This document shows positions 1 through 12,868 of a stretch of DNA of 33,567 nt, piece after piece. Every line of letters begins with the position of its first letter. Positions within the stretch are counted from its first letter, which is position 1. Below the pieces are notes generated by a model. The model saw only the letters and a program-made list of their open reading frames with translations, searched no databases and was not told where the DNA came from. This stretch comes from a virus: positions 1 through 33,567 of IMG/VR virus record IMGVR_UViG_3300032046_004681. One strand, given 5' to 3'. The translations under genes were made by a program, and so were the position numbers.

Positions 1-1682
1 ATATCCTCTGTTGACAACCTTGGTAGTATTCGTATATACGAAAGTTTCTGTATACTATCGATGAATCCTATCTTTATCAATTCATCTTTTGTTTCTGTAT
101 CTTCAAAAGATCCTCTAATCGCTCGTAAAGTTACGGTATAGACTCCTGCACTGTCATATGTATGTACCGGATTTTGTTCTGTAGATGTGTCACTGTCTCC
201 AAAATCCCAGGCCCAACTCGTAGGCGTACCTAAAGAGATATCCGTAAAAGATACTGTTAGGCTATCCACTCCTACTACAGGGGTAGCGGTAAAGTCAGCT
301 ACCATATTTACTGTGATGTAATTGGTTCTTGTTTTTGTTGAGGCTCCGCTATTAACGGATAAAACTACAGTGTACACTCCTGCTACAGTATATGTGTGAG
401 TTGGATTTTGTAAAGTAGACGTACCTCCATCACCAAAAGTCCAATTCCACGAGGTAGGAGACCCTAAAGATTGATCGGTGAAAATGACAAGTGAACCAGC
501 GTTAACTGTAGTGGGAGTAGCTGAAAAATCAGCCACCATATTTACTGTGATATAGTTTGTTTTAGTCTTGGTAGCTGCACCACTATTCACAGACAACGTG
601 ACAGTATACGTACCAGCGACAGTATATATATGAGTTGGGTTTTGTAGAGTAGATGTCCCACCGTCACCGAAATCCCAATCCCACGACGTAGCGCCAGTAG
701 ATAAGTCAGTGAAATTAACCGTTAATGAAGCATCGCCGGAAAGTGGCGTCGCCGAGAAATCAGCTGCTACTGTTGGTGCGCCCCATACCGATAAATATGG
801 GCCAGATGATTCGTTGACAAAGATTAAGTCATTTCTTCCAGCTACACGCGCATCATAGTAAGTGCCGGTATAAGTAATGGAATCAAGGACCGTACAAGGG
901 TTAGTCGTTATGTCTATCTTTTCAACTTTAGGTGTTCCACTTACGTTGGAAACAAGATATAAGTATGTCCCATCATAATCAAGGTTTACTCCGCCATAGT
1001 CCATGTATCTATTAGTAACAGCTCCATTAGCATATAAAAAACCGCCAAGGGTATAGAATTTTACACTTCTCTTACTAAATAGTTTCGTACCTCCCCCACC
1101 GAAACTCATACTTATACTACCAGGTGTAGGTCCTGGGTTTACAGTAGCAGCTCCAAGATATCCAGCATCCGAAACTTGATATGTACCTCCTGTAAAGGAG
1201 CCATACATCATTTGATGAGGTGTGAAATGAACGAATAATCCAAATGGATTTGGAGTAAAAGTCCCATAGTACGTAAAACTACCGCTAAACGTAAATAACA
1301 TCATATGACCGTATGGGTAGGAATCAGCAGAATTTATTACAATCTGTGTCCCTCCCCATTGCACTGCCATAGCCGATATACTACTGCTATAAGGAATAGC
1401 TACTGATCCTACTTCTGCAAATACAGATCCATTGAACGTGTATGCTTTTAGGTTCGATCCAACTATCCTAAAAAGGTATGTACCGTTGTAGTATATTGAT
1501 CGATTACCATAAATTGAAACTGAGGGTACCAGATAACTCGTTATTAAAGATAGGGTCGAACCTGTCCATTGGTAGGCATACATACCAGTAGAAGGGTCAT
1601 CTATGATGACATACCCGGAGTTGTCTACAACAATATCCCCAGGTGGATATAGAACAGAATCAAAGAGTTTTGTTAACGCCAT
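1..1682 (-). CDS. PKD-repeat fibre-like protein with propeller-like head (3' end beyond window)
   Basis: The frame is open from the ATG at 1682 to the window edge (560 codons, no stop), so the C-terminus is missing. Residues 1 to about 300 are Gly/Tyr/Ser-rich and recur in short beta motifs: YTFNG at 81, FTFSG at 130, FYTLGG at 209, and an xGTYL motif at about 65 and 236. This looks like a beta-propeller or similar repeat fold (inference). Residues 306-539 hold three PKD domains with an exact 78-residue period, each with the W-x-W-x-FGD core and an NPTH or NPVH-TY strand. PKD domains are Ig-like adhesion or spacer modules in surface proteins and phage fibres. The ATG overlaps the end of the glycosyltransferase gene by 10 bases, implying translational coupling. 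An AGGTGGGG stretch upstream can serve as ribosome binding site. Likely role: peripheral tail fibre or receptor-binding protein. GC looks lower here (33-40% in sampled lines) than in the wedge genes. Confidence 0.85.
   Translation of the reverse strand, partial: MALTKLFDSVLYPPGDIVVDNSGYVIIDDPSTGMYAYQWTGSTLSLITSYLVPSVSIYGNRSIYYNGTYLFRIVGSNLKAYTFNGSVFAEVGSVAIPYSSSISAMAVQWGGTQIVINSADSYPYGHMMLFTFSGSFTYYGTFTPNPFGLFVHFTPHQMMYGSFTGGTYQVSDAGYLGAATVNPGPTPGSISMSFGGGGTKLFSKRSVKFYTLGGFLYANGAVTNRYMDYGGVNLDYDGTYLYLVSNVSGTPKVEKIDITTNPCTVLDSITYTGTYYDARVAGRNDLIFVNESSGPYLSVWGAPTVAADFSATPLSGDASLTVNFTDLSTGATSWDWDFGDGGTSTLQNPTHIYTVAGTYTVTLSVNSGAATKTKTNYITVNMVADFSATPTTVNAGSLVIFTDQSLGSPTSWNWTFGDGGTSTLQNPTHTYTVAGVYTVVLSVNSGASTKTRTNYITVNMVADFTATPVVGVDSLTVSFTDISLGTPTSWAWDFGDSDTSTEQNPVHTYDSAGVYTVTLRAIRGSFEDTETKDELIKIGFIDSIQKLSYIRILPRLSTED
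66..767 (-). repeat. Three tandem PKD repeats, 234-base period
   Basis: Units at about 534-767, 300-533 and 66-299 each encode 78 residues. The first two are nearly identical in protein over their last 50 residues (44 of 50) but differ at many synonymous positions. A perfect 17-base match spans the linker encoding ITVNMV. The third unit is more diverged, with FGDSDTS in place of FGDGGTS. Confidence 0.9.
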
Positions 1683-2263
1683 GAATCACACCCCACCTGC
1701 ACATCTTCTCCTTCAATCCAAGTCATCCACGGTTTACGATTCTTTTCAACCATGACAGGATCGGTATAGTACTTCATCAAAGTTTCTGGAGCAATTGGCT
1801 TTATCCTATCGGCGCTTAGTCGGTAATGAATATAACAGTCATCTGGAAAAATACAGTGAGCCTCCGGTAAATACCCCGCTCTCACTATTTTCTTTATTGC
1901 GTCGCAGCAACCATTCGTTCCTATTATGAAATTACCAGCAAGATACGGTTTTCCCGGCGACATTTCAGGTATGTAATTCAAATACACGTCCGTATCCAGA
2001 TACAGTAGATTCGAAATATAAGACGCTTTTCTCCACCTCAACGGATCGCCTATTCTTGCAAAGGTTAGAACAGGACCATAATCCATATTCCATATGGGCT
2101 CATCGAAATACTGTTGTAGCTCCTCATTTTGCATCAGTTCAAACTCATGCCCATCCTCAGTAGCTATCTTATATGCCTGAGCTATGCACTCCATCCTTTT
2201 ACTTCTTGCAGGATCGGGGTAGGCTTTTACATGGGCATCGATCATTAGAATATGTAATTTCAT
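1673..2263 (-). CDS. Small glycosyltransferase (DxD type) in the tail fibre cluster
   Basis: This 196-residue protein has a DxD metal/nucleotide-sugar motif (D90-T-D92) in the context ASYISNLLYLDTDVYL. That resembles the 'sugar-binding region containing DXD' (GT32-like / capsular polysaccharide synthesis) transferases, preceded by the usual RWRKAS helix. A Gly-Asn-Phe-Ile-Ile-Gly stretch follows at about 110-115. No signal peptide or membrane segment is seen, so it should be cytosolic. It is shorter than typical GT32 enzymes (about 250-300 residues), but nothing looks broken. The start at 2263 has a good AAGGA site 7 bases upstream, and the stop overlaps the next fibre gene. Lying between PKD fibre genes, it might glycosylate a virion protein or host surface sugar; the acceptor cannot be read from sequence. 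Family call fairly confident, substrate unknown. Confidence 0.75.
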   Translation of the reverse strand: MKLHILMIDAHVKAYPDPARSKRMECIAQAYKIATEDGHEFELMQNEELQQYFDEPIWNMDYGPVLTFARIGDPLRWRKASYISNLLYLDTDVYLNYIPEMSPGKPYLAGNFIIGTNGCCDAIKKIVRAGYLPEAHCIFPDDCYIHYRLSADRIKPIAPETLMKYYTDPVMVEKNRKPWMTWIEGEDVQVGCDSWR

Positions 2264-2270
2264 AAAACCA

Positions 2271-2275
2271 TCCTT
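2271..2275 (-). promoter_or_regulatory. Ribosome binding site of the glycosyltransferase
   Basis: AAGGA on the minus strand, 7 bases before the ATG at 2263, in a 42-base gap. It is one of the clearer sites in this cluster. Confidence 0.6.
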
Positions 2276-2305
2276 AGCAGGTCACTAAAACATTCATGAA
2301 ATTTT

Positions 2306-2761
2306 TTATAAATTAACCTGCACAGTCATCTTAACAGAATAGTTACCGGGTATCCGATAAATATGCGTAGGACTCCTACTCGTAGATGTCTCCCCATCTC
2401 CAAAATCCCATACCCACTCATCAGGGGATATATTGATACTCGTGTCAGTAAAAACAACAGGCATAGGTGGAGTGCCTGATCTAGGCACTCCACTAAATTC
2501 TAAACTATACGGAGAAACAGTCACATATCCTGTCTTTGTCTCCGTATCAGATCCTACACCATCCGTCACCGTCAAACTAACCGTGTAGATCCCTGATCGC
2601 ATGTAATAATGCCTGGGATTCTGAGAGTGTATAACAGACGTCCCATCACCAAAATCCCATGCCCATCCAGTCACCCCTCCTGTGCTCAAATCTGTAAATT
2701 GAGTCACCAAGGGAATAGCCCCTGTAATCGGAGTACCTGAAAAATCTGCGTGTATAGCCAT
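2306..2761 (-). CDS. Two-PKD-domain fibre-like protein
   Basis: I place the start at the ATG at 2761 (151 residues, MAIHADF...) because an AGG-T-AGG ribosome site lies 6 bases upstream. A TTG six codons earlier overlaps the previous stop and has no nearby site. The protein is almost entirely two PKD domains, residues about 4-83 (WAWDFGDGTS core) and 84-149 (WVWDFGDGETS core). Between them sits a linker of the SDTETKTGYVTV kind common in multi-PKD surface proteins. No catalytic motif, signal peptide or membrane segment is visible. The start resembles the internal repeat starts of the gene at 1-1682, so it may be a detached piece of a longer PKD array. Likely a structural or adhesive component of the tail periphery; role inferred from domains and context. 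Confidence 0.82.
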   Translation of the reverse strand: MAIHADFSGTPITGAIPLVTQFTDLSTGGVTGWAWDFGDGTSVIHSQNPRHYYMRSGIYTVSLTVTDGVGSDTETKTGYVTVSPYSLEFSGVPRSGTPPMPVVFTDTSINISPDEWVWDFGDGETSTSRSPTHIYRIPGNYSVKMTVQVNL

Positions 2762-2767
2762 CGTGAT

Positions 2768-2774
2768 CCTACCT
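2768..2774 (-). promoter_or_regulatory. Ribosome binding site that fixes the start at 2761
   Basis: Minus-strand AGGTAGG ends 6 bases before the ATG at 2761 and overlaps the TGA of the upstream gene (2776-2778) closely. It supports the ATG over the TTG at 2779. Confidence 0.55.
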
Positions 2775-2775
2775 A

Positions 2776-3267
2776 TCAAACATCAGACAGATAAGCTCTC
2801 AAAGAAACAGTGTACTTCCCTACTAACGGATACACATGAGTAGGATCCCCTACCATCCCCGTAAAACCATCCCCAAAATCCCAAATAGCTCCAGTGAAAT
2901 GGCACCCAGACGGAGCTACGCTCTGCTCTGTGAAATGTACCACTAACGGAGCCGTACTCCTCACAGTATCCGCCGAAAAATCTAGCTTACCAAATCGAAG
3001 CTCATAAAACGGAGATACATATGATCCAGACGAGTCAGACACCGTAAGAACGACCCTGTAGATACCATACGAAGAATACGTATGAAGAGGCTCCCTGATA
3101 TCACTCGTACTCCCGTCCCCAAAATCCCAATGAAACGCTGTAGGATTCCCACTGGATACATCAACACTGAACTGTACGGAAACAGGTACGATATACATGA
3201 ATACACCGGACACTCCACACTGCCCAGTCTCACCTTGTTTATATAGCTGTATGTCCGCGGTGACCAT
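2776..3267 (-). CDS. Two-PKD-domain fibre-like protein
   Basis: A 163-residue protein with two PKD domains: about 1-92 (core FHWDFGDGST at 45-54) and 93-163 (core IWDFGDGFT at 128-136). The first has an extra Gly/Cys-containing stretch (about 10-25) not seen in neighbouring repeats. The ATG at 3267 is preceded by a GAGG site 9 bases away, inside the end of the upstream gene. The TAA at 3271-3273 that ends the upstream gene lies in the same reading frame as this gene, with only one codon between stop and ATG. The two ORFs therefore differ from one continuous protein by a single stop codon. No other domain is present. Probably a small structural subunit or a fragment of a larger PKD fibre. Confidence 0.8.
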   Translation of the reverse strand: MVTADIQLYKQGETGQCGVSGVFMYIVPVSVQFSVDVSSGNPTAFHWDFGDGSTSDIREPLHTYSSYGIYRVVLTVSDSSGSYVSPFYELRFGKLDFSADTVRSTAPLVVHFTEQSVAPSGCHFTGAIWDFGDGFTGMVGDPTHVYPLVGKYTVSLRAYLSDV

Positions 3268-3270
3268 GAC

Positions 3271-3930
3271 TTAAGTCCTCATGTCCAGGTACCCAGCTTT
3301 GCCTCGAGTACCCCTATGATAATCATATAAATCTCTCGATACAGACCACACCATCAGCTCGTCTATCTTCATAGTACTCTGAGCCGCTATCTCAGTCTTT
3401 GTCATCAAAGGTATAACCGGAGAGGTATTATATGATTTTGTACGCACAATCTCCCGATAATTACCCATATATGATCCCCAGTACATCTTCTCAGTCACAG
3501 GATCAAATTGTACCAAAGACCACTGCTTTATACCTATGACCGCATCCGAAGACCTGTATATGTACTGAGGAGTCTCAAAAACCAAATGAAACTGAGAATC
3601 TACGTAAAATCTCCAGTATGCCCCCGAAGACGCCTCAAAAGTCTGCATAATGACAAAACTAGGTGTAGGTACCACATCATTTACTATGATGTAGTCTACC
3701 TTGGTCTCACTATCCTGATCTACACTATCCCTGACTATCAATGTAACCGTGTACTTACCAGGTGCCGTATACGTGTGCTTCACTGAGGTATCATTACCAT
3801 CTACTACAGTACCATCCCCCAATACCCATGTCCGACCAGTAATAGTCCCCACAGAAACATCCGTGAACGTGACCGTATTGAACCTATCCGCGGCCCTATT
3901 AGATACTGTGAAATCAGCTGTGACGGACAT
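3271..3930 (-). CDS. PKD domain plus C-terminal half of a LamG-like domain
   Basis: A 219-residue protein. Residues 1-85 form a PKD domain with a slightly degenerate core (WVLGDGT at 35-41, HTYTAPGKYTVTL at 52-64). Residues 90-209 look like the second half of a LamG/concanavalin-like jelly roll: a beta-rich stretch, QWSLVQFD at 136-143, a YWGSY strand, then MKIDELMVWSVSRDLYDY (about 187-204). That last stretch matches the 'IDE-lrIwn-raLs' end of LamG_3 domains. The first half of such a domain is absent here but is found in the upstream gene at 3939-5051. The upstream TAG lies 8 bases before this ATG, in a different frame (this gene is in the -1 frame). The ribosome site is weak (TAGG), so coupling with the upstream gene is likely. 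Probable carbohydrate-binding fibre component. Confidence 0.8.
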   Translation of the reverse strand: MSVTADFTVSNRAADRFNTVTFTDVSVGTITGRTWVLGDGTVVDGNDTSVKHTYTAPGKYTVTLIVRDSVDQDSETKVDYIIVNDVVPTPSFVIMQTFEASSGAYWRFYVDSQFHLVFETPQYIYRSSDAVIGIKQWSLVQFDPVTEKMYWGSYMGNYREIVRTKSYNTSPVIPLMTKTEIAAQSTMKIDELMVWSVSRDLYDYHRGTRGKAGYLDMRT

Positions 3931-3938
3931 AGAAAAAC

Positions 3939-5051
3939 CTAAATAGTGATGCTTTTGACACGCTCAGACGTACCAGCTGCATTAGATGCTATGAGAGTAA
4001 TCAAATACGTACCGTGTGAGGAAAACGTATACGTCACGTCCCTAGAATGAATTTTCTCCCCACCCGAACCAAAATCCCACTCCCATGCCGTAGGAACCAT
4101 CGTAGACGTATCCGTGAACGTCACCCGCAACGAATTCACAGTATAAGAAAAATCTGCTATAGGAGGGACGTCCAAACGTATCCACGCCTGTACAGACCCT
4201 GTAAATCCTATAAATTTACTGTTTGTGTACGCCGACAGTCCGCCTCTATACGTCACAGAGTGACACCTATCTACTATACCATCCTCTACCACGAAAGAGG
4301 ATTGATCCTGAGACATGAAAAATATCCCAGTATCTCCAAGCCCTACTCCCGTATATCCTACCCCAGTATATCCCGAACCGGTAGCACCCCACCCCAAATC
4401 CCTCTCAAAAACAGCATAGTCCAACAAACTGATGTCATCTGTCTTGAATTTGCTGTAAAACAAGAGGTCAGTAGATGGGTAGTATCCCGTAGTGCCCTGC
4501 AGACCCATGGCCCCTACCGAACCCACTCCAGTGATCCCCTGAGAGCCCGTATATCCTATCAGGCCATCTATACCAGTCTCTCCTACACTACCTGTGTACC
4601 CATTGAGACCAGTATCTCCTACAGGGCCCTGAGTACCTCTATCTCCCTGCTCGAAATCTTGAGTGATAGAGAACGTAGACATTTTCGAGTACTGATTTAT
4701 CACCAGCACATCGAAACTACCGTAAGATTCCTGTATAATGAACTGAGCTATAGGCAGATAATTAGAAATAGCATCAGCTGTAACGTCCTGGATGAACGAT
4801 TCCGACTTTTTAACGAGATCAAAAACGAACGCGCCATCATCCACGTTATAGTAGGTATTGACAGCAGCATATTTACCTTTATCCTCTGGTAGAGTGAAAA
4901 AGGTCTGATCGCGTAGAGGTATGATCAGACTGCTGATGTTCAGGATCTGACCATTATACAGCACAGAGCCAAAGTCTACCGCGTAATCTGTGAGCCTTTG
5001 GATCCCCGTAGCCGTGCCGTGTACCTCATATATGAAATTTGAATTTTCCAT
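3939..5051 (-). CDS. Tail fibre-like protein: collagen-like repeats, N-terminal half of LamG, PKD
   Basis: A 370-residue protein. Residues 1-130 are an attachment-type beta domain (FGSVLYNGQILN..., FFTLPEDKGKYAAVN). Residues 136-189 are collagen-like Gly-X-Y triplets rich in GYTG/GDT with one imperfect triplet; a shorter Gly-rich stretch lies at 222-242. Residues 193-295 resemble the first half of a LamG_3 domain, from LLFYSKF to GSVQAWIRLD. At that point, where the LamG should continue, a PKD domain begins (298-370; core WEWDFGSGGE, slightly degenerate) and the protein ends. Collagen-like stalks trimerise and are typical of phage fibres. No Shine-Dalgarno site is visible: only three bases separate the upstream TAG from this ATG, so initiation probably depends on coupling. 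Likely a trimeric fibre mounted on the wedge protein encoded just upstream. Confidence 0.82.
   Translation of the reverse strand: MENSNFIYEVHGTATGIQRLTDYAVDFGSVLYNGQILNISSLIIPLRDQTFFTLPEDKGKYAAVNTYYNVDDGAFVFDLVKKSESFIQDVTADAISNYLPIAQFIIQESYGSFDVLVINQYSKMSTFSITQDFEQGDRGTQGPVGDTGLNGYTGSVGETGIDGLIGYTGSQGITGVGSVGAMGLQGTTGYYPSTDLLFYSKFKTDDISLLDYAVFERDLGWGATGSGYTGVGYTGVGLGDTGIFFMSQDQSSFVVEDGIVDRCHSVTYRGGLSAYTNSKFIGFTGSVQAWIRLDVPPIADFSYTVNSLRVTFTDTSTMVPTAWEWDFGSGGEKIHSRDVTYTFSSHGTYLITLIASNAAGTSERVKSITI
4485..4646 (-). repeat. Collagen-like Gly-X-Y repeat region
   Basis: About 18 triplets beginning GDRGTQGPVGDTG, with one two-residue break near GITGV. Proline is scarce and threonine common in the third position, as in many phage collagen-like stalks, which need no hydroxyproline. 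Confidence 0.88.
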
Positions 5052-5054
5052 GTG

Positions 5055-8000
5055 CTATTTGCGCAAAAGAGGTTTGTTCACCAGCCGATAAACAGAGATA
5101 GCTGTCTCTGCATCCTCGATATATCCAGGTTTATACTCAGCATCATTATCTTCGAAAAACCCTGTCTTGTTCTCTAAACGAGCTTTGTAGACTTTACTGA
5201 AAATCAGCAGCACCAACTCTCCCCTCATAATAGGATAGGTGATATCAGATCTCACCCGGGCTATCATCGGTACGAATACCTTTCTGGGAGTACCCTGTGT
5301 AACATTCTCAGCTTGGGCGATGACATCCACAGAGCACGATGAGTAATACGGCCTACCTACTTTGTCTCCGACATTATTGGGGCTGGATAACTCTATATCC
5401 TCCCCTATATACTGAGACAGTATGCCTGGCATCCTCACAAACCCGGTATTCACGCTGAAATTACTGAAATCTAGGTCATCTATATTGGAGAATACATTAT
5501 CGTTATTCACGGAGTCATCATTGACTGCTATATGCTCCGCGGGGACCTCATAAGGCTCCCCAAACACCACGCTACTGGCTCCCGTACCTAAATTCGTGAT
5601 AAATACCTGCTCTGACATGTTGACCACTTCTAGAGTCAGAGTGCCAGGTAGATTGCCTATGGTCTGATACGGGATGTACTTGTAGAAAGCCGTAGCTACC
5701 GATGTGCCAATAATAGCCGGTAGAGTAGCCAGCTTAACCAGCATGGGTATGAGGATGATACCCCCATTCAGAGCTTTACGAGGATCCATAGTAATCGTCA
5801 CAGCCGTAGTACCCAAACCCGTCACGGACGCTATAGGAGCCATCGTAAAATACTGATTCTGAGGCGGCAGAGAGGATGCCTGATACCACAAATAGGGCTG
5901 TCTCGCCGTCTCTTTAGTCTCACAAGATATGATCCCCAGCACCGTACCGTTTACCAGACCAGCTATCGTCGTGCTATTCAGATCGATAGTGACCGAGGTA
6001 GTCACCGTAGACCCAAGAGTAACGGGATACAGCACTCCCACATACATCCCACTCACAGATTTCGAGGCCACACTGAAATTAGATGTAAAAGACGTCCGTA
6101 GCGCATCCTGATTCTCACCAGTACTGGATACAGTGATACCCGTATCTATAGTAGTACCCCCGAGCACGCTACCCGGCACACACGCCTCGAGTGTCACATC
6201 TACAATAGCTTTCGCAGGGATGGTGAAAGCCTCATCCAGATATACCACTATGTTGTCTTTATCTAGGGCCGCATCTACGACCTCACGATCACGCAGAGCT
6301 AGGTCCCCTGCAAAATCCGTAGATATCTTATATGAGGCTCCAGTAACATTGTGTACCGATCGTACCCCGTATATCGCATATCCATTCAAATTTTTAGGTA
6401 TCCGTATCACGTTGGTAGACTCTGTAGTCTGCATATAATAATGATACTCTACCAGGGAGCCTCTAAACTGCTGCCCCTCGTATCTTCTAAAACTCTTCTG
6501 ATAATCAGGATCCGTCGACGCCGTGTGCCCTATAATCTCATATAGAGTCTGATCCTGCACGTTATCCAGCACTACTTTAGCCGAGTACAGCGTAGTGTAG
6601 TCTGTATACCCAGGTACGTTCTCAGTGAGAGTGTCCAACACCCTACTATCGCCCCTGGCGTCTATACCATTGAAATAGTACGTCGTATTGATATTTGTGG
6701 GGTCCGCCTGATACTTTACTGAGATAGGAGTCTTGGGCACCCTGGACAGTCCCTCACGAGAATAGTCCAGATAGTACGCAGTAACCTGATACTGTACATT
6801 GGTCAGGGTCCCACCCGCAGGGGTGAAATCATTCGCTATATGGAATATCACGGTATCGGTACCCATCCCCTCCCACGTACCACGTACCGGCTCACTAGAC
6901 ACGACTCCATTCCTCACTACAAAAGCGCTATAGTATGACAGATCATTTTCATACAGACCGTTATCTATAGGCCCGAATGTCATCTCCGCAGTAGTGATCT
7001 GTATGTTAGGATCTATCAGTTTCTGGTCCTGAGTGAGCACTGCCGAAGAAGATACTCCCCCTCGTACCAGATTCGTGATATCACTCGTACCCGTATACTG
7101 ATCAGACATCAAAATAGAGGTACCATATTGCAGCCCTTTTTGATCTTTGTCACTCAGATTAGTTCTGAGGTTATTAAACAGGAGCTTTTCAACATTCTTC
7201 TGTAATAGATAGCTGTATGACTGTACTACTATCTGACGACGTAGATCAGTGATATCCTCATCCACTATCTGCTCATAGGTCAGCCCATCAGGTCGAATAG
7301 CATTCAGATCAAAATAAGTAGATCCATTGATGTTGTTATTCACGTCAAACGCGCCAGAGTTCCGTCTGGATACGAAAAACATAGGGATAGCCCAGCTATA
7401 CCCATCATAGGTATTCCGGCAGCGTGCACGCCATAGCCCATAGTCCCCTGTATCGGATCCCATGTTCTCATAGACATAGTTTCCTGCTGCCGTGGTACTC
7501 GTGTTCGCTCCCTGACTATAGACATACTCATGCCCGAGTCCAGACTCAGGATGCTGAAAAGGATCCACTCCATCCGCTATCCTGATACGATACTGTATCT
7601 GTACCCTCTTTGTAGTCTCTACTCCCACCTGGGGATTTATGATGTCATCAGTGAGATACTCTTCAGCCTCAGATAGCACATTACCCTCAGGGAATATCCG
7701 ACCTTGTACCTTGGTGATTAGATCCGTACTCTGTACCTCTGTCGGGGGCAACAATGCTCCGTTGTATCTTACGATAGTCCCCTCATCCCCCAAAAACCAT
7801 CCTTTGACGTCTGAAACGAAAAAGAGATCCTTTAGATCATATCCTACACCCAGACCCAAAATCTCCCATTTAGACCCACTATTACTGCTGACCAGGGCCA
7901 CTCCATTGTCCCCCGCTATCCAGGCTTTATCCTCTACCGAGAAAGATAGCTGTGCGGGACTCATGCTAGAGAAAGACCCTGACGAGGGCCTAAAATCAGA

Positions 8001-9494
8001 GGGTTTCGCTGCCGGGGCATACTCTATGGAGCACTCGAATACACGTATCTTTTTACGCTGATTATCTGGGAGTGCCGCGTCATCTGCGCTGTAGGCACTC
8101 ACTATGTTATTTATGGCTTTACTCAGATTCTCCGCAGTAGCATAGGCGTCCAGATCCAACACCTGGATATAGTTGATGTTATCCTGAGTGCCCGTAAACT
8201 CCAGTACCAGAGAGTTAGGATAGTTCGCGGGGGATATCCTATACACAAGGTTTTTGAAATAGACTCTAGGAGCATAGGAGTACACTCCTATCACGAAGTT
8301 TATCCTGAACTCCTCACGTATGAAAACTCTGTTGAAATTGATCGTTTTACCAGGATATATGTCCTGTATGGTCCCATAAGCCCCATCATTCCAAATACGA
8401 GAGGACATATTAGCCCATGTGAACCCACTATCCGAGGTACGGAGAATGAGCCCGTCAGCTCCAGATATCACACCGTCATTCAGGTTGTAGAAAGCCACAG
8501 AGTACAGCGCTTTGGTAATCATAGTTCCTGTAGAGACATCTGTGACCGTATATCGCTGCCAGGAGTTACCACCATCCTTAGTCATCATCAGAGTACCATA
8601 GTCCCCGACTGCCCATCCTACTGCGAGATCAAAAAACGTGACACCATACAGGTTATTGGTGCTACCAGCAGTCTGAGACACTATGTTGAAATTGGTACCG
8701 TCTATGGTGAGCAGTATAGTACCGTTGTTACCAACTACACAGACGTTCTGATTGCTGATCAAAAAGAGATCGTTGAGGTCATCGGTCACTGGTGTCGCCA
8801 GCGTGAACCACGACTCTCCACCATCCAGACTCTTTATGATATGACCGTTATTGGAGATAGCGTATCCAGTATCCAGATCATAGAAACGTACTCTCTTGAA
8901 ACTCATATTGATGGGGGTATTGACCGTGATCCACTTGTTTCCACCATCAGTAGTTTTTAAAATAGTACCGTTGTCTCCTACTGCCCATCCAATGTTCTCG
9001 TTGTACATCCAAATGCCATTGAGAGCGCTGATCTTGGTCAGAGGCTGCGGTGCTACCGTCACCTCAGTCTGACTACTGTCCTGCTGAGGAGTGATGAGTG
9101 ATCTCCATACTTCCAGGAATACACCATCGACGCGAGATCCCGACCTCAGTACACTATCATTGAACAGGATCTTATTCACGTGAGACAGAGGAGTATTAGT
9201 ATCCGTGACATAGATAGGCCATCCATTTACCAGAGCCACCTCTGGTTTGGAGCCTGTGGGATCCTGAGTATAAAAGCTATTCCCGAGATCCTTTGAGGTA
9301 TAGTATGGGCGAAAACTGAGCCACCCAGACGGTAGGTGTGCTGTAGACCTCTGGGTGAGCATCTCTAGCTGTTGCTGTGCCAGATTCAGCTCAGAGTCCA
9401 GGACAGGTTTACCAGCCTGAAAAACTACCTTATCAAAGGCGTATCCGAGTCCCTCATAGGCTGTTGAGACATCATTGCCTTGGTTGTTGGCCAT
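5055..9494 (-). CDS. Baseplate wedge / fibre-attachment protein with nested YCF48-like beta-propeller
   Basis: The start is set at the ATG at 9494 (1,479 residues): an AGAGG site lies 8 bases upstream, but only 2 bases before the TTG at 9500. Residues about 15-135 match the N-terminal domain of large phage wedge/tail proteins (KVVFQAGKPVLDSELNLAQ; DGVFLEVWRS). That domain appears to resume near residue 595, with ETTKRVQIQYRIRI at 627-640 and RPDGLTYEQIVDEDI farther on. Between them (about 155-578) sits a run of YCF48/BNR-like propeller blades, each with a GWAVGDNGTILKTTDGG-type motif. I count about seven, with a roughly 140-residue insertion after the fifth. The remaining ~800 residues are beta-rich structural sequence. 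Position after the J-like gene and before the fibre genes fits a T4 gp7/gp8/gp10-like role at the wedge periphery. Exact orthology cannot be settled from sequence alone. Confidence 0.85.
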   Translation of the reverse strand: MANNQGNDVSTAYEGLGYAFDKVVFQAGKPVLDSELNLAQQQLEMLTQRSTAHLPSGWLSFRPYYTSKDLGNSFYTQDPTGSKPEVALVNGWPIYVTDTNTPLSHVNKILFNDSVLRSGSRVDGVFLEVWRSLITPQQDSSQTEVTVAPQPLTKISALNGIWMYNENIGWAVGDNGTILKTTDGGNKWITVNTPINMSFKRVRFYDLDTGYAISNNGHIIKSLDGGESWFTLATPVTDDLNDLFLISNQNVCVVGNNGTILLTIDGTNFNIVSQTAGSTNNLYGVTFFDLAVGWAVGDYGTLMMTKDGGNSWQRYTVTDVSTGTMITKALYSVAFYNLNDGVISGADGLILRTSDSGFTWANMSSRIWNDGAYGTIQDIYPGKTINFNRVFIREEFRINFVIGVYSYAPRVYFKNLVYRISPANYPNSLVLEFTGTQDNINYIQVLDLDAYATAENLSKAINNIVSAYSADDAALPDNQRKKIRVFECSIEYAPAAKPSDFRPSSGSFSSMSPAQLSFSVEDKAWIAGDNGVALVSSNSGSKWEILGLGVGYDLKDLFFVSDVKGWFLGDEGTIVRYNGALLPPTEVQSTDLITKVQGRIFPEGNVLSEAEEYLTDDIINPQVGVETTKRVQIQYRIRIADGVDPFQHPESGLGHEYVYSQGANTSTTAAGNYVYENMGSDTGDYGLWRARCRNTYDGYSWAIPMFFVSRRNSGAFDVNNNINGSTYFDLNAIRPDGLTYEQIVDEDITDLRRQIVVQSYSYLLQKNVEKLLFNNLRTNLSDKDQKGLQYGTSILMSDQYTGTSDITNLVRGGVSSSAVLTQDQKLIDPNIQITTAEMTFGPIDNGLYENDLSYYSAFVVRNGVVSSEPVRGTWEGMGTDTVIFHIANDFTPAGGTLTNVQYQVTAYYLDYSREGLSRVPKTPISVKYQADPTNINTTYYFNGIDARGDSRVLDTLTENVPGYTDYTTLYSAKVVLDNVQDQTLYEIIGHTASTDPDYQKSFRRYEGQQFRGSLVEYHYYMQTTESTNVIRIPKNLNGYAIYGVRSVHNVTGASYKISTDFAGDLALRDREVVDAALDKDNIVVYLDEAFTIPAKAIVDVTLEACVPGSVLGGTTIDTGITVSSTGENQDALRTSFTSNFSVASKSVSGMYVGVLYPVTLGSTVTTSVTIDLNSTTIAGLVNGTVLGIISCETKETARQPYLWYQASSLPPQNQYFTMAPIASVTGLGTTAVTITMDPRKALNGGIILIPMLVKLATLPAIIGTSVATAFYKYIPYQTIGNLPGTLTLEVVNMSEQVFITNLGTGASSVVFGEPYEVPAEHIAVNDDSVNNDNVFSNIDDLDFSNFSVNTGFVRMPGILSQYIGEDIELSSPNNVGDKVGRPYYSSCSVDVIAQAENVTQGTPRKVFVPMIARVRSDITYPIMRGELVLLIFSKVYKARLENKTGFFEDNDAEYKPGYIEDAETAISVYRLVNKPLLRK
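7761..9032 (-). repeat. YCF48-like propeller blades inside the wedge protein
   Basis: Blade motifs, with (A/G)-x-(G/N)-x-(D/N)-G-x-I-x-x-(T/S)-x-(D/S)-x-G-x-x-(W/F) character, recur near residues 174-188, 215-229, 255-269, 297-312 and 346-360. Two more lie at about 527-544 and 570-577, after an unrelated insertion (about 7971-8402 in DNA). Seven units would close a propeller. Confidence 0.8.
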
Positions 9495-9502
9495 TTTCAA
9501 GA

Positions 9503-9508: not shown

Positions 9509-12500
9509 TTATATGACTGTGAGATCCTTCATACTGAGACTATCTACCGAGATATACTCTATAGTATTGGTTTTCAAATCCCCCACTATATTTACATCCG
9601 CCGGATAGTAGGTGTAATACGATGCTTTATAATGTTTAGTCTGTGGCGGCTGACCATCTGTAGTACTTACAATAATTTTACCATCAGCTTCTATATAAGC
9701 ACTCCCAGCACTCTTAGACACATCTCCCGCGATGCCTGCCATAGTGAGCAGCACATTATCTTCATACACACCTCTAAAGAGATTAGGGTCTCCACCACCA
9801 TCTGACGTACTGTAGGTCAGTACAGGTTTCACGGATCTAAATGAGGTGACTCCACTACTGCTGGTTTTCTGATACACCTCAAAAGATAGTATACCCAAAT
9901 CATCCAGAGGTATAAAGGAGCTGTTCCGTTTCATCATCCTGGTCAGAGGTAGCCGTATCTCTTTTACTCCATCTACTCCCTGCACCACTCCTACCAGGGC
10001 ACCCTGCGTAAATGACTCTCCCATCCTCAATCCTGCCACATAATTCGCTACCGCTGTCTGTAGACGAGATTTGAGGAGACTCTGGTCTGACCCTGTCTTT
10101 CTGACTACCGTGAAACTGATATCGACGAAATTTTGCACTGCTTCTTTCACGATAGCATCCGCACAGGCATGCTTCATACCATTGATAGCTGTCTGTACCT
10201 GCTGTACTAGACTATTGTGTACATACGTCACATCGAAATTCTCACTGGCCTGATAAGATACCAGGACGGTGTCCCCATGACGTATCTTGCTACCCTCCAA
10301 AAGATTCAGATACGTATAGGTGGAGTCACTCCCCACAGTAATCGAATAATCTACCCCATCTATATAGGTAGTACCACTCGTCGGCTCGACTACGATAGTG
10401 GACGTGTCTACGCCTTTTTGTAAGAGCCTGGCGGGGGTGTCGTACAGCATAACATGCTGTTCATCTGTTATTGTAACAAATTCAGGTATGTTGTCATTAG
10501 CATTGAAAAAGAATTTCACAGAATCCTGTGCTATACTCGACCCACCATCCTGGAGTATATCCTCTGTTTTCACTAGAGCATACTTTGAAGAGTCTATCAC
10601 GGTCCCATCTGACGCTACCACCAATACTACCGACTGTACGGGCTGATTAGCTAGTACGATATTGTTAGAGCCCCTATAAAGATAGTCTACCTCTATAACG
10701 TCCAGGGTAGCCATACCTATACCGAGATTTTGATAGTTTTTCTCCAAAAGTATTGTATTCCCGCCATTTACGACACTGATATTGGCCAGACTGTAATCCT
10801 TAGCTCTAGTGACATTCCTGGCACTGGTCACAGTCACGATAGGACTACTATCCGTGACTTTAGGGTTGGTACACCTGAGCATGAACTCGCTAGCGTTCAC
10901 GACATAGAATCTCTCGCTCAGTTTATTACCGTACGTGTCCGTAGGATACTCATACTTAAAAGCGACCTGATCTACGTACTGGGTCTCAATCACCCCTTTG
11001 ATATATATATCCACCTTACCACCTATATGCTTACCGGTTTCCCTATCGTAATCCCTCATCATCAGGGAGTCCCCACCTGACTCTATTTTCACCTGCTGTA
11101 CTCCAGGTACGTCCAGAGCGGTGCCCACATACCCCCCCTCAGTACCAGAGTCGAAAGATATTTTCGCCAGCTTTATCCTGTTAGCCAGTTGCTGATTCGA
11201 TTCTCTATCTGTGCCAAACAGAGTAGGAGCGTTATTCGTGACCTGTATGGTAGAGGATAGATTCCTGGTGATAGTGATAGATCCCGCAGGTACGTTACTC
11301 GTGCTCCCCGTCAGCTGAGCCTGTATATTTGCCTCAATCTCATACCTTTTCTGGGTGGGATTATAATAGTGCTGGAGGTTGCTGATATCTATAATCTGAC
11401 TCCCCTGCACAGAAAAGCTCATCGAGGCAGCTCCCGTATCAGGATTCGCTACCGACGTCACCACTGCCCCATTTGGTATGAGTATGCTCGACGTAGGAGT
11501 TATCTCTGTATAGAACAACACTGTCCCGATCGCGTAGGTAGCTCCCTTACGTATCTCATTGAAATTTGATGCCAGTTTATCAAACTGCTGATCTATGAGT
11601 AGCTGCAAATTTACAGGGTCTGTAATACCCAGAGCATTCATCAGAGCACTTTTACGAGGGCTGAGCACCACCGCATCACTGACTCCATCTCCATTAGCGT
11701 CATCGAACAATAGGAGAGTGTCTGCTGAAAGCGTAGAAAATATGAAATCCTCTATGATATAGAATTTCTCAAACTCTAACGATACTGGATCCAATATGTC
11801 TCGTATAACAGATCCCGGGACCACATTGATGAGGGAGTTATTGAGCATCATATCCCGAGAGATAGAGAACAGCACGTCCCCTCGGGATCTTTTCGGTAGA
11901 ATCTGATACGTAGTGGAGTACTGTAAAAACTGCGCTTCCAGCTCTACTGAGTAAGGGCTCTCTACAGCTTCATTAAGGTTACTATCGAAAGCCATCACCG
12001 TGGCTATGAAATAATACACGACATCATTACTCAGGGTCTTACCGTCAGACAGGAACACATTAGGAATAGCCCCCGTCTGTACCAGCCTGATCAGCACGCT
12101 TTTATCGAGTGTGTAGGAGTAATATGTATTCGTGTACTGAGTTTTTTGTACAGTGTCTATCTCTATATTATTCGTGACATCTGCAGAGAGAGTACTCGAC
12201 ACTACGGTCTCATTGGTTTCCACAGGATCTATGGAGGTTACCAGGGCAGTATTCATGAGGACATAGCCCCCCGTACCGCCACCTGCTGTGATACTAACGT
12301 AAAAATTGCATCCCGCGAACGTACTGTTATCGTTCAGCTGAATGCCACCCACCGGCACTATAACTTTGATATTGTCTATAGCTCTTTTTAGGCTGACTCC
12401 AGTTACAGGGTTCGCGGTAGCCTGTATCTGATTCTCCGGGACTATGACCACGGTAAGAGTAGGCCTGTTAGGATCAGGACTAGGATCGGGGCTACGGTCT

Positions 12501-12868
12501 ATTATAGGGCCTACTTCCCCGTTATAGCTGCTCAGCTCCACCGTTCTAAATTGGAATGAAATGGTCTCATTATAGGAGTAATTTATGATACCGTCAGTAT
12601 CTAAAGACCACGGTATAGACGTCACCGTAGCGGATGTAGAGCCTACTGTTATCCCCGCGAAAGAGTACGCGCTCCAGGCACCTGAACCAGACGAGTTATC
12701 TATGTGATAGCGATACTGTACACTGAGGAACGTATTTCTTACTATACCCGCGGGTGCTACAGGGATAGACCCGGAGATTAACTGGTACAGACTATCGGAA
12801 TAGTACGTGTACGATCCAGTAGGCGTCCAACTCGTCATGGGATATAGGATTATAGGCGCTGAGACCAT
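9509..12868 (-). CDS. Baseplate J-like / gp6-type wedge protein
   Basis: A 1,119-residue protein. Residues about 440-600 carry the Baseplate_J pattern: IPNGAVVTS, NVPAGSITI, VTNNAPTLFGTDRESNQQLANRI (in pieces), then GGYVGTALDVPGVQQVKI. Residues about 895-980 match the family's C-terminal part (DISFTVVRKTGSDQSLLKSRL..., then GVDGVKEIRLP). J-like proteins (P2 gpJ, T4 gp6) link wedge to wedge and form the ring around the hub. The protein is about twice the usual size of T4 gp6. The extra material includes an N-terminal beta-rich region (1-320) with an FnIII-like strand pattern near 283-310 and a loop of calcium-binding appearance, DANGDGVSD, near 390-398. Modules of the type DGVDYSITV...VLVSYQ near 838-872 resemble modules in the giant protein. 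The gene follows the gp25-like gene, the normal order in contractile tails. Confidence 0.9.
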   Translation of the reverse strand: MVSAPIILYPMTSWTPTGSYTYYSDSLYQLISGSIPVAPAGIVRNTFLSVQYRYHIDNSSGSGAWSAYSFAGITVGSTSATVTSIPWSLDTDGIINYSYNETISFQFRTVELSSYNGEVGPIIDRSPDPSPDPNRPTLTVVIVPENQIQATANPVTGVSLKRAIDNIKVIVPVGGIQLNDNSTFAGCNFYVSITAGGGTGGYVLMNTALVTSIDPVETNETVVSSTLSADVTNNIEIDTVQKTQYTNTYYSYTLDKSVLIRLVQTGAIPNVFLSDGKTLSNDVVYYFIATVMAFDSNLNEAVESPYSVELEAQFLQYSTTYQILPKRSRGDVLFSISRDMMLNNSLINVVPGSVIRDILDPVSLEFEKFYIIEDFIFSTLSADTLLLFDDANGDGVSDAVVLSPRKSALMNALGITDPVNLQLLIDQQFDKLASNFNEIRKGATYAIGTVLFYTEITPTSSILIPNGAVVTSVANPDTGAASMSFSVQGSQIIDISNLQHYYNPTQKRYEIEANIQAQLTGSTSNVPAGSITITRNLSSTIQVTNNAPTLFGTDRESNQQLANRIKLAKISFDSGTEGGYVGTALDVPGVQQVKIESGGDSLMMRDYDRETGKHIGGKVDIYIKGVIETQYVDQVAFKYEYPTDTYGNKLSERFYVVNASEFMLRCTNPKVTDSSPIVTVTSARNVTRAKDYSLANISVVNGGNTILLEKNYQNLGIGMATLDVIEVDYLYRGSNNIVLANQPVQSVVLVVASDGTVIDSSKYALVKTEDILQDGGSSIAQDSVKFFFNANDNIPEFVTITDEQHVMLYDTPARLLQKGVDTSTIVVEPTSGTTYIDGVDYSITVGSDSTYTYLNLLEGSKIRHGDTVLVSYQASENFDVTYVHNSLVQQVQTAINGMKHACADAIVKEAVQNFVDISFTVVRKTGSDQSLLKSRLQTAVANYVAGLRMGESFTQGALVGVVQGVDGVKEIRLPLTRMMKRNSSFIPLDDLGILSFEVYQKTSSSGVTSFRSVKPVLTYSTSDGGGDPNLFRGVYEDNVLLTMAGIAGDVSKSAGSAYIEADGKIIVSTTDGQPPQTKHYKASYYTYYPADVNIVGDLKTNTIEYISVDSLSMKDLTVI

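Follow-up and report, generated by a model that had tools for sequence, protein, structure and literature searches.

Can two neighbouring phage genes each encode one half of a protein domain, with the domain completed by the meeting of their products? This question is raised by IMG/VR record IMGVR_UViG_3300032046_004681, a virus record of 33,567 nucleotides (33.6 kb), the whole of which we refer to as the window. It covers a baseplate and tail-fibre region, and its main genes all lie on the minus strand. Gene A (370 residues; 3939..5051) and gene B (219 residues; 3271..3930) follow each other there, and an initial annotation had described a LamG-like domain that is split between them.

The order described in that annotation, and its coordinates, are right. 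The putative first half of a ConA/LamG-like domain (h1) occupies residues 189-297 of A (4161..4487) and is followed by the C-terminal PKD domain of A (PKD-A, 3942..4160; Pfam PKD_4, E 1.5e-10). The stop of A, at 3939, and the ATG of B, at 3930, are separated by a gap of 8 nucleotides (3931..3938) with a frame offset of 2. B starts with a PKD domain of its own (PKD-B, 3673..3930; E 6.5e-13) and continues with the putative second half (h2, residues 88-219; 3274..3669). Both PKD domains score above the Pfam cut-off (41-49 bits for PKD_4 versus 27; PKD family PF18911/PF00801). The observation of a split LamG-like domain is confirmed. The same arrangement is shared by 14 distinct phages, which chance would not explain, and we consider it likely that the two chains complete one ConA/LamG-like domain in trans.

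Resemblance of the two halves to LamG

Intact LamG copies occur elsewhere in phages related to the window, namely in an 918-residue protein of contig L014 and in contig L020, and a LamG profile of 240 columns was made from intact domains of these phages. When the profiles were compared with hhalign, h1 aligned to LamG columns 38-80 (P 0.006) and h2 to columns 112-204 (P 0.0016). Controls with the N-terminal domain of A and with the PKD domains gave P values of 0.67-0.84. These weak profile matches suggest that h1 corresponds to the N-terminal part of LamG and h2 to the C-terminal part. The curated cut-off of Pfam Laminin_G_3 (PF13385), 27.6 bits, was reached by neither half when each was scanned within its own protein; the halves are therefore not assigned to that family, and a LamG-like fold is claimed instead. 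A sequence search of the PDB returned only weak pectin lyase rows with the h2 profile and none with the h1 profile. The profile searches proposed in the initial annotation thus yielded complementary LamG matches in profile-profile comparison, but none with Pfam.

The fold was predicted for L020, where reading through a single TAG brings h1, the two PKD domains and h2 into one frame; the h1 and h2 sequences of the other phages were supplied as unpaired rows. The AlphaFold model of this read-through product aligned to AbnA (5hp6; Z 11.7, 150 residues, model range 8-382), to a laminin LG domain (2wjs; Z 9.8, 129 residues, range 15-372) and to agrin G2 (3pve; Z 9.7, 121 residues, range 52-372). 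Other ConA-type domains also aligned, over ranges that start in h1 and end in h2. Because h2 has only about 130 residues, the longer alignments use residues outside it. By this measure the joint product is predicted, in cis and partly at low confidence, to have a ConA/LamG fold. Foldseek rows for the same model were mostly Ig/FN3 arrays matched via the PKD domains. When B was modelled alone, the best 50 rows were of PKD/Ig type and contained no ConA/LamG row, although PKD rows may crowd out h2 there. The segment MKIDELMVWS forms a strand in the joint model (362-370) and was not assigned as a strand in B alone. Its loss would fit a missing partner strand from h1, a pairing that known LamG topology suggests.

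Two open reading frames (ORFs) therefore match one domain, both in their complementary profile matches and in the joint fold, which supports the proposal of a LamG-like domain in halves on two genes. The opposite case, in which each half is complete on its own, seems to fit less well: the model of both halves gave ConA/LamG rows, and the model of B alone did not.

Conservation of the split among related phages

Profile scans of IMG/VR identified 16 other contigs with relatives of both genes. After near-copies were collapsed, the 17 contigs including the window represented 14 distinct phages, in which the identity of h2 to that of the window is as low as 28%. In all 14, h1 (within an A-type protein) and h2 are found on separate ORFs. 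The carrier of h2 is mostly a minimal PKD-h2 protein directly past A (11 of the 14 phages), with a gap of 2-16 nucleotides. In L016, h2 is the C-terminus of an 834-residue protein that also contains PKD and a long unrecognised N-terminal part, and two genes separate it from A. In L058 it is the C-terminus of a 401-residue protein with FN3-like companions, one gene away from A. In L015 it is internal to an 874-residue protein next after A, with another 480 residues preceding it and with Gly-rich, Ig and LamG-like companions. Given the well-supported branches, the h2 carrier must have changed at least twice. Since the carrier has changed and the companions differ, the pairing of h1 and h2 has survived relocation.

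The closest relative (L001/L013) has both genes at 72-74% identity; its gap is also 8 nucleotides long, but the letters differ, and past the stop the sequence between A and B is not conserved. Between the window and L001, synonymous sites are saturated (dS 2.1 in h1, 1.8 in h2) and nonsynonymous divergence is low (dN 0.13 in h1, 0.21 in h2), so that both halves are under purifying selection as proteins. The distances of h1 and h2 are correlated over the 14 phages (0.78), and a partial r of 0.56 is left after removal of the A N-terminal domain (partial Mantel p 0.0002). The same partial correlation is 0.10 (p 0.23) for PKD-A versus PKD-B and 0.16 (p 0.21) for h1 versus PKD-B. h1 and h2 thus co-diverge beyond the rest of A.

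Outside IMG/VR, an INPHARED search with A returned collagen-like matches only, and searches with B from three phages returned no match. A GTDB scan with A gave one match, L062, in which the h1, h2 and PKD profiles were unmatched and the A N-terminal domain matched weakly (E 0.25).

Alternative readings of the split

Several points weigh against the completion of one domain by two chains. B alone is confidently predicted (pLDDT, the per-residue confidence of the model, 88.7), including h2 with values of 75-95. The L020 model has a mean pLDDT of 71, high in h2 and moderate in h1, where residues 17-71 fall below 50 and the remainder reach about 50-79. In this model the halves sit on one chain (in cis), so that contact is favoured, and the aligned ranges report end points only, from which the share of h1 has to be deduced. 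Neither A nor B matches a Pfam LamG model (E up to 1 in the window, up to 10 in relatives), the hhalign matches of h1 and h2 are each weak when taken singly, and the permutation used for the partial correlations leaves some shared ancestry in place. Pattern scans of IMG/VR, GTDB contigs and INPHARED, which overlook distant homologues, found no homologue with h1 and h2 on a single ORF. The confident prediction of B, the partly poor prediction of h1 and the missing Pfam match would all suit a reading in which A and B are ordinary separate fibre proteins and the resemblance is to the ends of LamG only: h1 and h2 would each be a small beta domain of its own, or h1 would be a stalk cap rich in loops and h2 a compact domain complete in itself. 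We nevertheless judge this reading unlikely: the ConA/LamG alignments of the joint model cover both halves and are lacking for B alone, the halves match ordered, complementary parts of LamG, and they co-diverge.

The halves could also be fused at the A/B junction by frameshifting, stop read-through or ribosome hopping. The shortness of the gap speaks for such recoding, as do the B frame of the window, which is open for 22 nucleotides upstream of the A stop, and L020, where A and B share one frame with a single TAG between them. However, the frame relation and the gap vary (L020 and L026 have the same frame with stops between, elsewhere the offset is 2), and the B frame is closed by a stop where A ends or past that point in L020, L026 and L001/L013, in the last case a TGA just ahead of the ATG. 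The gap is unconserved past the stop, whole genes intervene in L016 and L058, and in L015 h2 is reached only after 480 other residues. As no one shift or read-through rule fits, and as none could work across intervening genes or domains, only separate chains account for all cases; programmed frameshifting and stop recoding were rejected on these grounds, and we give fusion at the junction very little credence. The -1 frame change noted in the initial annotation is present in the window, but it is not a general rule, since A and B share a frame in two relatives, with stops between.

That A and B are out of frame in the window might further be taken as the mark of a single gene recently broken by an insertion, or of a sequencing or assembly error. 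This has almost no probability, because independent contigs from 14 distinct phages carry the same split, and both halves show saturation at synonymous sites and a low dN/dS; we rejected sequencing error and recent disruption accordingly. The separate ORFs in all relatives, together with the variation of gap, frame and carrier, exclude sequencing error, and exclude frameshifting or read-through as a general rule. Between the two options considered at the outset, assembly in trans is therefore favoured over a broken gene: the split has been kept by purifying selection in 14 phages, two of which have the halves on genes that are not neighbours. Insertion of a PKD cassette into one gene would be a conjecture, as no homologue was found with the halves joined without PKD.

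Genomic setting and proposed role at the tail tip

Upstream of A on the minus strand are a Baseplate_J protein (9509-12868) and a BNR-repeat protein of 1481 residues (5055-9500); beyond the latter come A, B and C, and then more PKD genes. The N-terminal domain of A (residues 1-133; 4653..5051) is kept in all relatives and is presumed, from gene order, to attach to the baseplate. It is followed by a collagen-like Gly-X-Y stalk (residues 135-189; 4485..4649; Pfam Collagen E 9e-7). Gene C (2776..3267, minus strand), the third gene of the conserved block, has two PKD domains. The last of these ends about 21-25 profile positions early, without the final strand (about 23 in the window), and so does its counterpart in L013, L014, L019, L020, L022/L027, L024 and L056; another chain might supply the missing strand.

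The window probably comes from a large-genome phage, because its Baseplate J protein matches that of the uncultured 485-kb phage LR745208 (30% identity, 87% coverage) and also those of Tunturiibacter phage Tunturi_5 and Bacillus phage G. The vicinity of the shared baseplate J gene in LR745208 and Tunturi_5 contains no convincing h1 or h2. Homology between the window and L001 stops where gene C ends, and the PKD-rich tip genes beyond (window 3-2830, L001 9099 onward) are replaced by others, which suggests that the region past gene C is a variable tip. A 196-residue protein encoded between PKD genes (1673-2263) has no clear family match; by eye, glycosyltransferase-like genes seem similarly placed in L011 and L012. 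In L059, two genes past A within the virion gene block, a 300-residue ORF (11846-12748) has the look of a papain-like C1 peptidase (HALLAVGFDD...FKNSWSKNWG).

We propose that h1 and h2 together make up one ConA/LamG-like beta-sandwich, each supplying half of it, and that the two polypeptides would assemble non-covalently. A would be the stalk, with its N-terminal domain presumably on the baseplate, a presumably trimeric collagen-like rod, and h1 and PKD-A displayed beyond it; B would supply h2 together with PKD-B. The chain is broken between PKD-A and PKD-B, so that one PKD domain would hang from each side of the opened loop, and they may add contacts. Completion of the sandwich would dock B on the stalk, or in some relatives a larger h2-bearing protein, so that the split domain would act as a joint for attaching tip modules, with gene C and the PKD-rich genes past it forming a tip extension. 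The complex, the trimeric state, the docking role and any ligand binding are all inferred. More tentatively, and with the chances somewhat against it, half-domain complementation could be a general attachment joint into which any h2-bearing protein plugs, tip modules being swapped while the stalk is unchanged. Other incomplete folds in the block, such as the last PKD domain of gene C, may work likewise.

With known LamG/ConA-like lectin-glucanase domains (Laminin_G_3, laminin LG, agrin G2, the C-terminal domain of AbnA), the proposed domain shares the predicted fold, the strand order and the SAWV-type and W...DE-type motifs; it differs in being encoded by two genes on two chains, in having PKD domains at the break and in a sequence below Pfam cut-offs. 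In donor-strand complementation of pili, another subunit completes an incomplete beta fold during assembly. There too a partner completes the fold, but here it would supply about half a domain instead of one strand. Two-chain legume lectins arise from one precursor that is cut after translation. Those of pea, lentil and faba bean are ConA-type jelly rolls with a heavy and a light chain (PMC8834014); the likeness lies in a ConA-type jelly roll built from two chains, the difference in the two genes used here.

Split phage genes, or genes in pieces, are known from Aeh1 nrdA, the T4 topoisomerase gene 60 region and gene 43A/43B of Aeromonas phages 25 and 44RR; the proteins concerned are enzymes, the splits were caused by homing endonucleases or intercistronic sequence, and intact relatives are known (PMC2988022). 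As in those cases, one ancestral polypeptide would now be two that must reassemble. Here, in contrast, the domain belongs to the virion, we recognised nothing resembling an endonuclease at the break, the scans turned up no intact relative, and the h2 half has moved between carrier proteins. The gap of 2-16 nucleotides in 11 of 14 phages leaves no room for a mobile endonuclease or intron, and a Pfam scan of two of the three genes between the halves (514 residues in L016, 139 in L058; the third, in L016, has 174 residues) gave no match.

The literature searched on phage PKD/LamG/collagen fibres yielded nothing, and no description of a two-gene ConA/LamG-like virion domain with an exchangeable half was found in it. 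Domains split like h1 and h2 would be overlooked by gene-by-gene domain searches. If the proposal is correct, A and B hold a natural split-protein pair that acts in the virion and is conserved over wide divergence, and that would be available to engineering as a natural complementation pair. Our results suggest that domain completion joins tail-fibre parts near the tail tip of large uncultured phages; the joining of fibre parts through fold completion would account for the exchange of tip proteins in large phages rich in PKD domains.
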